64,000 nucleotides of DNA, taken from the NCBI RefSeq assembly GCF_021172165.1, contig NZ_CP089096.1, forward strand, positions 2,728,001 through 2,792,000. Reading direction: 5' to 3'. The notes beneath the pieces were generated by a model, which saw nothing but the letters and a program-made list of their open reading frames with translations, searched no databases and had not been told where the DNA came from. Positions 5,804 through 10,053 of this stretch are shown piece by piece (position 1 is the stretch's first letter; the number at the start of each line of letters is the position of its first letter). The stretch is from Flavobacterium channae. GTDB taxonomy: Bacteria; Bacteroidota; Bacteroidia; Flavobacteriales; Flavobacteriaceae. Position numbers and translations under genes: made by a program.

Positions 5804-7405
5804 ATGGACTTTTTATATCAAGACCCGTATCCTATTTTAAAAGATGATACGCACTACAAAAAATTAACTTCAGATTACGTAAAAGTAGAAAAATTAGGCG
5901 ATAGAGAAATCTTAGTAGTCGACCCAAAAGGGTTAGAATTATTAGCGCAAGAAGCCATGGACGACGTTTCGTTTATGTTGCGTTCTGCTCACTTACAAAA
6001 ACTACGAAATATTATCGATGATCCGGAAGCAACAGATAATGATCGTTTTGTAGCTTATAATTTATTGCAAAATGCTTCAGTAGCCGTTGAAGGGCAATTG
6101 CCTTCTTGTCAAGATACTGGAACTGCGATTGTAGTTGCTAAAAAAGGTGAAAACGTGTACACTGGTGTTGATGATGGCGAGTGGTTGTCTAAAGGAATTT
6201 ACAATACGTACCAAAATAAAAATCTTCGCTACTCGCAAATTGTTCCGATTTCGATGTTTGAAGAGAAAAATTCGGGTTCAAACTTACCAGCTCAAATTGA
6301 TATTTATGCTAAAAAAGGAAGTTCATACGAATTCTTGTTTTTAACAAAAGGTGGTGGATCGGCAAACAAAACGTTCTTATATCAAAAAACAAAATCGTTG
6401 TTGAATGAAAAATCTTTAGACGAATTCATTCGCGAGCGCATTATGGATTTAGGAACAGCAGCATGTCCTCCGTATCACTTGGCAATCGTAATTGGTGGAA
6501 CATCTGCCGAAGCAAATTTAGCTGCTGTTAAAAAAGCCTCTGCAGGTTATTATGACCATCTACCAACTTCTGGAAACATGTCTGGACAAGCTTTCCGCGA
6601 TTTAGAATGGGAAAAAAGAATTCAAATCATCTGTCAAGAAAGTCAAATAGGTGCTCAATTTGGTGGAAAATATTTAACGCATGATGTTCGAGTTATTCGT
6701 TTACCTCGTCATGCTGCATCTTGTCCTGTTGGAATGGGAGTATCATGTTCTGCCGATAGAAATATTAAAGGAAAAATTACAAAAGATGGTATTTTCTTAG
6801 AACAATTAGAAACCAATCCAGGTCAATTTTTACCAGATACAGCTCCACATTTAGAACCTGCTGTAGAAGTTAATTTGAACAGACCAATGCAAGAAGTATT
6901 GGCAGAATTGTCAAAATATCCTATCAAAACACGTTTAAAATTAAACGGAACTTTGATTGTAGCTCGTGATATTGCGCATGCCAAAATCAAAGAATTATTA
7001 GATGCTGGAAAACCAATGCCAGAGTATTTCAAAAATCATCCAGTGTATTATGCTGGTCCTGCAAAAACTCCAGACGGAATGCCTTCAGGAAGTTTTGGTC
7101 CAACGACTGCTGGAAGAATGGACGTTTATGTTGACGAATTCCAAGCGGCTGGTGGAAGTATGATTACGTTAGCTAAAGGAAACCGAAGCAAAGACGTAAT
7201 GAACGCTTGTAAAAAACACGGCGGATTCTATTTAGGTTCGATTGGTGGTCCTGCTGCAATTTTAGCAAAAGAAAATATCTTATCGGTTGAAGTTGTTGAT
7301 TTCCCAGAATTAGGTATGGAAGCCGTAAGAAAAATTGAAGTAAAAGACTTCCCTGCGTTTATTATTACTGATGATAAAGGAAACGATTTCTTTATGAATT
7401 TGTAA
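5804..7405 (+). CDS. fumA: Class I fumarate hydratase (iron-sulfur)
   Basis: Interconverts fumarate and L-malate in the TCA cycle with an oxygen-sensitive [4Fe-4S] cluster. The 533-residue length and continuous alpha plus beta domains match single-chain class I fumarases. Likely cluster ligands are Cys102 (LPSCQDTGT), Cys221 (TAACPPYH) and Cys315 (GVSCSADRN). The C-terminal part has the [12 protein letters not shown] and [11 protein letters not shown] motifs of the beta domain. The ATG at 5804 gives a normal N-terminus. The gene stands alone, with a terminator-like hairpin at 7517. Its codon use is less extremely AT-rich than that of the upstream lipoprotein gene, as expected for a well expressed housekeeping gene. 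Confidence 0.95.
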
Positions 7406-7516
7406 ATAATAAAAGAGTTGTTGATATATAGTTTTTTAATTAGTAATAAATTTATTTAATAAATATTATAAATAAAATCAATAGATTTTATTATTTAAAT
7501 AAATTCAATATTAGAT

Positions 7517-7547
7517 AAAGTTGTGTTAAAATAACGCAACTTTTGTT
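7517..7547 (+). terminator. Terminator-like hairpin downstream of fumarase
   Basis: AAAGTTGTGTTA pairs with TAACGCAACTTT (one G-U pair) across a loop of about three bases and runs into TTTTGTTT. The hairpin lies 112 bases after the fumarase stop and overlaps the -33 element of the next promoter. Confidence 0.6.
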
Positions 7548-7575
7548 TAAAAAATAAAATTATGTGCTAATTTTG
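7543..7575 (+). promoter_or_regulatory. Promoter for the hairpin RNA and NYN gene
   Basis: TTG at 7543-7545, 22-base spacer, then TAATTTTG at 7568-7575, a full TAnnTTTG match. Transcription would begin near 7582, just before the two-hairpin RNA. Confidence 0.6.
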
Positions 7576-7581
7576 CACCAT

Positions 7582-7641
7582 AAACGTCACGCTTTACTGT
7601 CAAGTAAAGTATAGCTACCGACTTAGGTAGCTTTTTTTTTG
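7582..7641 (+). ncRNA. Short two-hairpin RNA ending in an intrinsic terminator
   Basis: About 60 bases between a good promoter and the NYN gene. Hairpin 1 is GCTTTACT (7591-7598), loop GTCA, AGTAAAGT (7603-7610). Two bases later hairpin 2 is AGCTACC (7613-7619), six-base loop, GGTAGCT (7626-7632), followed at once by nine T residues (7632-7640). Both stems are 7 bp perfect, and hairpin 2 plus the T run is a textbook intrinsic terminator. The nuclease ATG lies 10 bases further on. The element is either a stand-alone small RNA or a termination-controlled leader; the sequence cannot decide. I do not recognise a named RNA family. Confidence 0.65.
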
Positions 7642-7650
7642 TAAAAATTT

Positions 7651-8292
7651 ATGAGAACTATTGTTTACATTGATGGGTTTAATTTTTACTATGGTTTGCG
7701 AAACAAATCCAGAATGGATGCAAATTGGAAAAAATTCTATTGGATAGATTTTGTAAAATTAAGTGAGCAATTTTTAATGAATGGTGAAGTTCTCGAAAAA
7801 GTTAAATACTTTACTGCCCCTCCTTTAAACAGAAACAAACAAAGTCGTCAAAGCGCCTTATTTAAAGCTAATTCGTTATTAAATGAAGATCGATTTGAAG
7901 TTATTAGAGGGAAATATTATGATAAACAAATTACTTGTTCTGGTTGTGGAATATCTTTTTCGAAACCAGAAGAAAAGAGAACTGATGTTAACATTTCTGT
8001 TAATATGGTTGGTGACAGCGCATTAGGACTGGTAGATAAAATTATATTAATATCCGCAGATAGTGATTTAGTTCCTCCACTTGAATTTATTAAGACGCAT
8101 TATCCAAATATTGCAATTAAAATTTACTTCCCTCCTTGCAACTTTAGCTATGATCTGAAAGAAATTGCAAAAGGGAAAAAAATAACCAAATTAGAAGATA
8201 ACTCTTTTAGATTTAGAAATTCTATAATGGATGAAATTGTATTTAACAAAGAAAAAAGCGATAATGCAACTATTCCTGAAAAATGGAAATAA
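7651..8292 (+). CDS. NYN-domain (PIN-like) ribonuclease
   Basis: Predicted metal-dependent endoribonuclease of the NYN/LabA (DUF88) group, 213 residues, cytoplasmic. Acidic positions expected in the PIN-like active site are present: Asp8 in YIDGFN with Asn11, Asp112 in KRTDVN, and Asp137/Asp139 in ISADSDL. One CxxC (Cys96, Cys99) lies just before the second motif, and another Cys occurs at about 153; a zinc knuckle is possible but incomplete. The gene has no same-strand partner downstream and faces rlmI convergently. Immediately upstream is a terminator-ended hairpin RNA, so expression depends either on read-through or on an RNA-based control. Substrate unknown; roles in RNA decay or defence are both open. 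Confidence 0.82.
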   Translation: MRTIVYIDGFNFYYGLRNKSRMDANWKKFYWIDFVKLSEQFLMNGEVLEKVKYFTAPPLNRNKQSRQSALFKANSLLNEDRFEVIRGKYYDKQITCSGCGISFSKPEEKRTDVNISVNMVGDSALGLVDKIILISADSDLVPPLEFIKTHYPNIAIKIYFPPCNFSYDLKEIAKGKKITKLEDNSFRFRNSIMDEIVFNKEKSDNATIPEKWK

Positions 8293-8406
8293 CTTCATCG
8301 AAAATTTTAAAAAAATCAATTTTGAACATCTTTTTAGTTTTGAAAACTACCATCCTAAAAAAATCGATACAAATTTAGTAGGACAGATTACTTAACACTT
8401 TGAAAT

Positions 8407-9570
8407 CTATTCCACAAACAACACCAATCCTTTTAAATAATGACCTTCTGGATGGTAAATATTGGTTGGGTGATCTGGCCCTTGTTCTAATTTGTGTAAA
8501 ACTCTAATGTTTCTTCCTGTTTCAATCGCGGCGGCGGCAACCGTATTGTAAAACAAAACATCGTCAATGACTTGCGAGCACGAGAATGTGAATAAAATTC
8601 CGTTTGGAGCTAAAGCTTTTAATCCGGCAATATTTAAACGTTTGTAAGCTTGCGTTGCGGTGTGTTTACTTTTGATGCTTTTCGCGAAAGCTGGTGGATC
8701 TAAAACAATTACATCGTAAATTTGATGATTCTCCTTCATGAAGTTGAACACATCGTCAGCAACAGCTTTATGATTGGCTTTTGGGAAATTTAATTCCATA
8801 TTACTGGCTGCTAAATCCACAGCTTTTTGAGAAATATCTACCGAAGTTACTAATTCTGCTCCAGCACTCATGGCGTAAATTGAAAATCCGCCTGTGTAGC
8901 AAAAGGTGTTTAGTACTTTTTTGCCTTTTGAAAATTCGCCTAGTAACTTTCTATTTTCGCGTTGGTCTAAGAAGAAACCTGTTTTTTGACCTTCTACCCA
9001 ATTTACCGAAAACAAAATGTTGTTCTCTTTTGCAACTGCTTCTACTTTATTTCCGAATAAGAAATAATCAGTTCCTGTATTTGGTAAAGTTCCTGAACTT
9101 TTGCAATAAATAGTTTCGCAATAGTCTGGAAAATTGGATTTTATGGCTTCAGCTATTTTCTCCATTTGAAGAAAAACTCCAATGGAATGCGCTTGAATTA
9201 CCCAATTATTATCGTAATAATCAATGATTAATCCAGGAATCCCATCGCCTTCTCCGTGAATCACACGAAAAGCATTCGTAACTTCAAAATCCAATATTTG
9301 GGTGCGTAAATACCAAGCCGATTGTAGTTTGGTTACCCAAAAATTCTCAGAAAAAACTTCATCACCAAAAGTCAAAATTCGGACAACAATACTTCCTTTA
9401 TCGCTAAAATAACCTGTTCCTAAATGGTTATTTTTTGCATCCACAACATCAACCATTTCACCATCGTTAATTTCACGACTTACGCCATAAACTGCACCGC
9501 TGAAAATCCAAGGATGACGACGTTGTATAGATTTTTCTTTGCCTGATTTTAAAATTACTTTTGGGAACAT
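8407..9570 (-). CDS. rlmI: 23S rRNA cytosine-C5 methyltransferase, RlmI family
   Basis: SAM-dependent class I methyltransferase of 387 residues predicted to make m5C in 23S rRNA (C1962 in E. coli numbering). Residues 1-75 form a PUA-like RNA-binding domain containing RRHPWIFSGAV. The Rossmann domain follows, with NTFCYTGGFS (SAM motif I), VVxDPPAFAKS-type motif IV (VLDPPAFAKS) and FTFSCSQ carrying the probable catalytic Cys. Length and domain order are normal for the family. It is the last gene of the minus-strand run; its ATG is preceded directly by the repeat at 9573-9687, so any private promoter would have to lie in or beyond that repeat. Confidence 0.9.
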   Translation of the reverse strand: MFPKVILKSGKEKSIQRRHPWIFSGAVYGVSREINDGEMVDVVDAKNNHLGTGYFSDKGSIVVRILTFGDEVFSENFWVTKLQSAWYLRTQILDFEVTNAFRVIHGEGDGIPGLIIDYYDNNWVIQAHSIGVFLQMEKIAEAIKSNFPDYCETIYCKSSGTLPNTGTDYFLFGNKVEAVAKENNILFSVNWVEGQKTGFFLDQRENRKLLGEFSKGKKVLNTFCYTGGFSIYAMSAGAELVTSVDISQKAVDLAASNMELNFPKANHKAVADDVFNFMKENHQIYDVIVLDPPAFAKSIKSKHTATQAYKRLNIAGLKALAPNGILFTFSCSQVIDDVLFYNTVAAAAIETGRNIRVLHKLEQGPDHPTNIYHPEGHYLKGLVLFVE

Positions 9571-9572
9571 GT

Positions 9573-9687
9573 TAATGTGTCAATTTGAAAATGTGTCAAT
9601 GTGCCGATACAATGTGTCAATTTGAAAATTAGTCAATTATTAAATTGCTAACTCATCAATTAATTGGCATATTGTCTCATTGCCTTA
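9573..9687 (-). repeat. Degenerate intergenic repeat, copy 1 (between four-helix gene and rlmI)
   Basis: Read on the minus strand it begins at the stop codon of the four-helix-bundle gene and ends two bases before the rlmI ATG. It is built of short alternating units such as AATTGACACATT and GCAATGAGACAAT. The end next to the ATG, CACATTGACACATTTTCAAA then TTGACACATTAA, is almost identical to the same end of copy 3. Confidence 0.85.
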
Positions 9688-10053
9688 TTGACTAATTTTT
9701 TTGGTTGTTGAAATGATTTTATTTGTAATTTTTAATATATCAAAAACTTCCGTTAGTAATTCTTCTGCATTTGGATAATTTTCTAATTCGTTACAAAGAA
9801 ATAACCAAAATTCGGTTTCATCGGCTTCTTTCATTGCAATTTTCATTTTATGAATAAAGTCTGCTTTGCTTTCAGAATTTTGAGCTTCTTTAATATTTGC
9901 TCCTATTGAAGTTCCTGATTTTAATAGTTGATTGGCGATTACATACTTTCTGTCTTCTTCTAATTTTTCTGTGTATTGAACTACTTTTTTAGCAAATTCA
10001 AATGATTTTAAAAGAATTAAATTGTTTTTGTACTTTTCTTGAAATGTTATCAT
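9685..10053 (-). CDS. Four-helix-bundle protein, S23/23S intervening-sequence-protein family
   Basis: A 122-residue all-helical protein of the family first seen inside 23S rRNA intervening sequences and related in fold to the Avd accessory protein of diversity-generating retroelements. The family core is clear: NQLLKSGTSIGANIKEAQNS (residues 41-60), then KADFIHKMKIAMKEADETEFW. The biochemical role of solitary members is unknown; nucleic-acid binding is a reasonable inference from the basic surface of relatives. There is no 23S gene and no reverse transcriptase here. The gene is flanked on both sides by degenerate repeats, and its last codons and TAA are themselves within the repeat, which suggests the gene arrived with, or expanded with, the repeat. 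Confidence 0.88.
   Translation of the reverse strand: MITFQEKYKNNLILLKSFEFAKKVVQYTEKLEEDRKYVIANQLLKSGTSIGANIKEAQNSESKADFIHKMKIAMKEADETEFWLFLCNELENYPNAEELLTEVFDILKITNKIISTTKKISQ

Follow-up and report, generated by a model that had tools for sequence, protein, structure and literature searches.

A small RNA of two hairpins, its stems conserved by compensatory change, accompanies the gene of a NYN (PIN-like) ribonuclease across one nuclease family. We describe the pair from a 64,000-nucleotide stretch of Flavobacterium channae DNA (hereafter the window), and find it also in other Bacteroidota, in Pseudomonadota, Actinomycetota and Deinococcota and in viral contigs, so that it looks like an unrecognised module shared by bacteria of distant lineages, by phages and by plasmids. 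What might this module do? Probably it is an antiphage device akin to toxin-antitoxin systems, in which the RNA would neutralise a toxic PIN-like NYN nuclease. Few toxin folds underlie the known RNA-antitoxin systems; to these, a PIN-like nuclease with a conserved RNA partner would contribute one more. The features of the window copy are as follows.

7406..8406, no strand assigned: variable cargo slot, the fumarase / RlmI-like methyltransferase interval (comparison of related genomes)
7541..7575, plus strand: putative promoter of Bacteroidota type, TTTTG at 7541-7545 and TAATTTTG at 7568-7575 (read from sequence)
7580..7640, plus strand: small structured RNA, proposed RNA antitoxin (model R1 score, conserved architecture, covariation)
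7583..7590, plus strand: AC-rich single strand AACGTCAC, immediately 5′ of hairpin 1
7591..7610, plus strand: hairpin 1, loop GTCA (sequence and RNAfold)
7613..7632, plus strand: hairpin 2, the terminator stem, 7 pairs, loop GACTTA
7632..7640, plus strand: run of nine T, the first of which belongs to the hairpin 2 stem
7651..8292, plus strand: NYN (PIN-like) ribonuclease, 213 aa, PADLOC family HEC-09
7672..7674, plus strand: Asp8 codon, predicted catalytic (D in 118/118 aligned rows)
7984..7986, plus strand: Asp112 codon, predicted catalytic (D in 118/118)
8059..8067, plus strand: Asp137 to Asp139 codons, predicted catalytic (D137 in 118/118; D139 in 117/118, with one gap)

The original prediction of a hairpin RNA with a terminator in front of a NYN gene proved real, and its coordinates held on re-reading the sequence. 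From an AC-rich 5′ end, the RNA runs through hairpin 1 and a short linker to terminator hairpin 2, and the ATG of the NYN gene follows at 7651, 10 bases past its end. The claim of two perfect 7-bp hairpins stands for hairpin 2 (arms AGCTACC, 7613-7619, and GGTAGCT, 7626-7632) and needs amending for hairpin 1, whose arms GCTTTACT (7591-7598) and AGTAAAGT (7603-7610) form 8 pairs, seven Watson-Crick and an outer G-U; the nine T residues said to follow the second hairpin are present at 7632-7640, though the first lies inside the stem. RNAfold, run on 58 nt of the RNA, returns just these two hairpins at -19.5 kcal/mol. The consensus promoter claimed ahead of the RNA is borne out as well: we call TAATTTTG a -7 box on the strength of TAnnTTTG, which we take to be the Bacteroidota -7 consensus, and this motif lies 14-31 nt 5′ of hairpin 1 in all 20 hand-grouped co-directional loci of Bacteroidota type, versus 3.4% in shuffles. 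We infer a transcription start near 7580. A sigma-70 search had placed no promoter at the RNA among the 60 of its 77 sites that were listed. Our RNA model R1 gives the element 58.1 bits at 7579-7639, a score to be read in the knowledge that the window RNA is one of its training sequences. Rfam has no match in the window at gathering cut-off. In a generic scan of 16 kb, the number of terminator-like sites by itself is not above chance (6 versus 7.6 expected), the hairpin 2 site ranking first; the element rises above chance because its stems, promoter box and RNA are conserved in relatives.

The protein matches the NYN domain (PF01936, 36.4 bits against a gathering score of 24.2) and, over nearly its full length, the PADLOC HEC-09 model (E 1.1e-46, model positions 3-202 of 203), as do 40/40 members of protein alignment A7; no NCBIfam model matches it. 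The best named relative found among genome contigs is that of Flavobacterium sp. CYK-55 (71% protein identity). In a CRISPR-associated NYN of Bacteroides fragilis, the accessible part of one study reports predicted active residues and a D13A variant that failed to cleave (PMC11346440); those residues sit at spacing like that of D8, D112 and D137, the comparison being one of spacing alone. NYN genes are patchily distributed at E <=0.001 (6/199 genomes of the genus, 8/349 of the family, 57/345 of the class and 49/395 of the phylum), the class count in particular consisting mostly of weak matches to other NYN genes. Matches also lie in 407 plasmid records, and the window protein matches three phage records, each at <60% identity; the window DNA has no match among the phage records. 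Some plasmid relatives (OW969950, OW967205, NC_019328, CP027479) are annotated as 6-hydroxy-3-succinoylpyridine hydroxylase or monooxygenase (HspA, NicB), probably a carried-over name.

How tightly is the RNA bound to this nuclease family? From 168 distinct NYN loci in genomes, viral contigs, plasmids and phages, we retained 135 (>=70 bits, 120 nt upstream, 150 aa), or 118 once near-copies were removed. An automatic rule, requiring within 80 nt a stem of at least 6 with 4 G-C pairs and a T-rich tail, detected a co-directional terminator hairpin at 84/118, and a like rule for the other strand over 120 nt found a divergent element only at a further 16, leaving 18 with neither. Controls were far lower, both for the co-directional rule (1.6% of dinucleotide shuffles, 2/188 other ORF starts in the same loci, 0/13 distant LabA-type NYN genes) and for the divergent one (9/1180 shuffles, 3/170 other ORF starts, 0/13 distant NYN genes). 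The opposite-strand pattern also occurs at 13 co-directional loci (29/118 in all), mainly a consequence of terminators being readable in both directions; we therefore counted as divergent only the 16 loci with no co-directional element, one of which, L176, looks co-directional by eye. A post hoc second look at the 18 remaining loci, combining visual reading with a relaxed rule, revealed an element at 11, divergent in L060, L069 and L189 and co-directional in L061, L029, L102, L246, L254, L174, L129 and L236. The other seven (L075, L091, L180, L068, L146, L117, L235) show no convincing element, which counts against a toxin-antitoxin pair.

By eye, genomes, viral contigs and plasmids repeat one pattern: AC-rich strand, hairpin 1, linker, hairpin 2, T-rich tail, start codon. 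The AC-rich strand has counterparts such as AACGCCAC, AACGCCCC and CACCCC; CYK-55 carries a near-identical RNA amid unlike surroundings, and a relative in a Bacteroidales MAG (59% protein identity) shares the layout with stem letters that differ yet still pair. Several loci (L097, L098, L121, L128, L152, L164 and others) share a linker of TGC, CTGC or CCGC ahead of hairpin 2 and the letters TGCTTTTT after it. At three loci (L036, L253, L255) the NYN reading frame is broken or holds a stop codon and the RNA element looks intact, as expected if the RNA alone is harmless.

The test set in advance by the original prediction was whether the stems persist ahead of other NYN homologues. They do, with the element automatically found at 100/118 loci and compensatory changes in three alignments, which we built from sequence and compared with 500 column shuffles and six versions with slid partners. 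All three drew on loci hand-picked for similar length: A9, 15 of the 20 sequences in the Bacteroidota-type group; A12, 11 out of 23, 8 being viral contigs (its forerunner A10 had 15, of which 4, shifted or stretched by the alignment, were dropped); and A13, 17 divergent loci, some outside the 118. Paired cells reached 89.7% in A9 (67.2 shuffled), 92.1% in A12 (72.7) and 93.0% in A13 (77.0), and covariation scores were 0.601 (shuffled mean 0.203, best slid version 0.199), 0.662 (0.266) and 0.575 (0.248), respectively. No shuffle out of 500 matched any of the alignments in covariation score, in percentage of cells paired or in the count of two-sided cells, and the covariation score exceeded each of the six slid versions; the aligned sequences are related, so shuffle ranks are not probabilities, and the slid controls agree.

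Hairpin 2 (96.7% of cells paired in A9) was a selection criterion for most loci of A9 and A12, and hairpin 1 is therefore the fairer witness in these two; in A9, each of the seven hairpin 1 pairs has changed on both sides in one sequence or more. Several observations count the other way. Neither the 9/13 A9 pairs with two-sided change nor the further pair types are unusual (69/500 and 62/500 shuffles, respectively, are as high), and of the 84 co-directional loci only 64% have a hairpin 1 score above the 95th percentile of shuffles, so that in a good third the first element is weaker or of another kind. In one enterobacterial-pseudomonad group, the first hairpin is more complex or different.

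The strongest evidence that selection has kept the RNA itself, rather than termination before the gene, comes from loci at which the RNA points away from the nuclease and ends in its own terminator. Fifteen of these (L008, L011-L014, L016-L018, L020-L022, L243, L251, L253, L063), from Bacteroidota and Thermus, form one clade on the protein tree (support 98/93), and this clade separates the RNA's job from that of the terminator. Most of this group also has conserved loop and linker letters (GATAGCATC-like and CCGACG-like). Outside the 15, Microbacterium L060 is divergent, and with L060 and L189 included the divergent label needs three changes on the tree. Two features of the arrangement weigh against a toxin-antitoxin interpretation: the TAnnTTTG box stands at the right end in only 9/15 members of the clade, and a divergent RNA cannot dose the nuclease by read-through.

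Structured RNA gene, terminator and ribonuclease gene, as in the window and at 84/118 loci, are reminiscent of type III toxin-antitoxin systems (ToxIN, CptIN, TenpIN). Unlike those, the protein here is NYN/PIN-like and outside the ToxN family, the RNAs are predicted to be plain hairpins, and the family includes divergent members without the RNA-terminator-gene layout. The window RNA, moreover, is a single unit: a direct-repeat search of 7400-7650 found 0 families, which upholds the original prediction's caveat about missing tandem repeats and counts against the type III parallel. For the family as a whole that caveat fails, because some relatives (L065, L164, L340-L343) carry tandem units in varying copy number, of ~33 nt in some of the plasmids and repeated four or five times in some enterobacterial ones. 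Klebsiella plasmid L065 has four copies of the hairpin 1 unit, at spacings of 33, 33 and 29 nt, followed by the terminator and the NYN gene. Near-identical arrays have four units in L340, L341 and L342 and five in L343 (five plasmids examined in all), with a base change in one unit of each of the L340-L343 arrays; L164 has two units. For comparison, ToxI/antiQ repeats are given as 34-36 nt, repeated 2.8-5.5 times, in the accessible text of PMC12373285, and as numbering 3 to 5.6 in E. coli clusters in that of PMC8860590. Such copy-number variants in small plasmids are a natural test of what a single unit does. On the enterobacterial plasmid of L070, degenerate repeats with GCGATTAAGTTACGC lie at 1298-1378, and other loci of that protein group have a similar loop, ATTNAGTT. 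By canonical standards the window copy falls outside type III, sharing the layout but neither the repeats nor a ToxN-family protein; a type III-like layout, as originally proposed, is nevertheless strengthened by the relatives' tandem repeats, the divergent copies and the match to a defence candidate.

That candidate, HEC-09, belongs to a set said to come from a preprint by Payne et al. (2024). It was catalogued as a single gene with a protein model only, and our comparison extends to that protein model alone, which matches the window protein, the 40 A7 members and a gene lying between hmaA and hmaC in Thermus: on Thermus oshimai plasmid pTHEOS01 (L344), HmaA, a divergent RNA, NYN, an IS4 transposase and HmaC follow in this order. 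HEC stands for Hma-embedded candidate (PMC12988326, accessible part), the embedding being how HECs were found and not a requirement for each member. Should HEC-09 indeed work with an RNA, assays of the protein without it could fail or prove toxic. The only mention of HEC-09 that we found, in the accessible part of PMC12447246, correlates it in Pseudomonas with phage susceptibility and not resistance, contrary to a defence role.

If the pair does act as a toxin-antitoxin-like module, its promoter at 7541-7575 would drive an RNA of 60 nt, terminated at hairpin 2, and occasional read-through of that terminator would supply the NYN message. Binding of the RNA, most likely through hairpin 1 plus the AC-rich stretch 5′ of it, which together form the unit that some plasmid relatives repeat, would hold NYN inactive. 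When transcription stops, for example on takeover by a phage, or when the element is lost, the RNA would decay and the freed NYN could cut RNA of the cell or of the phage. The divergent clade would make such an RNA from the other strand, with the RNA retained as a product rather than for termination before the gene.

Precedents for an RNA-controlled toxin outside the ToxN family exist. AbiF is a HEPN-type protein. In AbiF/RCd22, as in the NYN pair, a noncoding RNA stands ahead of the toxin gene, with a terminator and either one motif or two; this RNA is Rfam RF03085, which the window RNA does not match and which a search of 20 loci, L001 among them, did not return at E up to 0.5. It is described in the accessible part of PMC12373285 as an antitoxin acting through RNA-protein binding. 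The sole match on an element in that 20-locus search, a sub-threshold threonine leader on L066, is taken as a chance hit (30.1 bits against 55, E 0.14), the others lying elsewhere in the loci. In AvcID, too, an RNA adjoins a non-ToxN toxin in what is called a type III system, and AvcI is lost when phage inhibits transcription (accessible text of PMC10511110); its toxin, however, is a deaminase, its RNA 171-300 nt long and no terminator is predicted between the genes. The accessible sources on the CRISPR-associated NYN of B. fragilis and on the MARF1 NYN, in contrast, mention no upstream RNA partner. Among the titles and abstract openings listed by our literature searches, a weak sample lacking bioRxiv and most subscription journals, none joins a NYN nuclease with an RNA antitoxin.

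The main rival is that the RNA activates or directs NYN rather than inhibiting it, as a cofactor, sensor or guide that reports invader RNA, for instance, or presents a cleavage site. We consider this possible, if rather unlikely. An effector RNA would account just as well for the conserved RNA-protein pairing in both orientations, for the loop and linker letters that most divergent members conserve and for the Hma surroundings of the Thermus copy, and a NYN nuclease is already known from a CRISPR context (PMC11346440, accessible part). We noticed, however, no spacer-like part in the RNA, its stems vary, though by compensation, and arrays of near-identical units in varying copy number are typical of type III antitoxins. 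A bolder and more doubtful version would make HEC-09 a widespread antiphage RNA-protein particle, a stable complex with the small RNA, single, divergent or arrayed, as its sensing or directing part, in which damage to the RNA or pairing with it switches the nuclease on; if true, this would constitute a new RNA-controlled immune nuclease on the PIN-like fold, parallel to AbiF on HEPN.

A second alternative, in our judgement unlikely, is an attenuator or autoregulatory leader, whose hairpins merely set NYN expression or feed back on it, perhaps as a NYN cleavage site. Promoter, hairpins, terminator and ORF do stand in a single line, and dosing by read-through is shared with type III logic. The attenuator proposal, as distinct from a feedback by cleavage, is weakened, however, by the opposite-strand RNA of a well supported clade, by antiterminator pairing no better than in shuffled sequence (>=6 bp in 12/84 loci, with 15% expected, and 3 bp in the window) and by the lack, in the window RNA, of an ATG for a leader peptide.

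A third, still less probable, is an sRNA that regulates other mRNAs and simply accompanies the NYN gene. Its terminator and free 5′ end are common among sRNAs, but its presence follows the NYN family and not the neighbours or distant NYN genes, and no confident copy apart from NYN emerged from 395 Bacteroidota genomes. R1 is insensitive here: it found matches in 53 of these genomes, only two above 39 bits, both of them training loci adjoining NYN, and since, of 30 match loci fetched and 27 readable, the 25 beyond the training loci look like plain terminators, R1 cannot settle whether orphan copies exist. An ordinary terminator of the upstream gene beside an unrelated gene, for which only the chance-level number of terminator-like sites in 16 kb speaks, can be set aside, contradicted already by conservation and by the element's own promoter box, two hairpins, covariation and family-wide position.

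Returning to the proposed toxin-antitoxin-like pair, its setting in the window is that of isolated cargo. Promoter, RNA and NYN lie between a fumarase gene ending at 7405 and an RlmI-like methyltransferase gene on the other strand ending at 8407, and a Pfam scan of four neighbours identifies the flanks as fumarase and methyltransferase. Of the related genomes, six gave a close RlmI-like match: one (G011) has the same neighbours 52 bp apart, three (G012, G023, G009) hold other sequence in the slot and two have no fumarase match within reach. No Rfam rRNA match occurs in the window, where a protein of the 23S rRNA intervening sequence family (PF05635) is encoded at 9685-10053 on the minus strand. 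Viral contig L166 carries a C4 antisense RNA with its target region at 2708-2898 on the minus strand, near the NYN gene.
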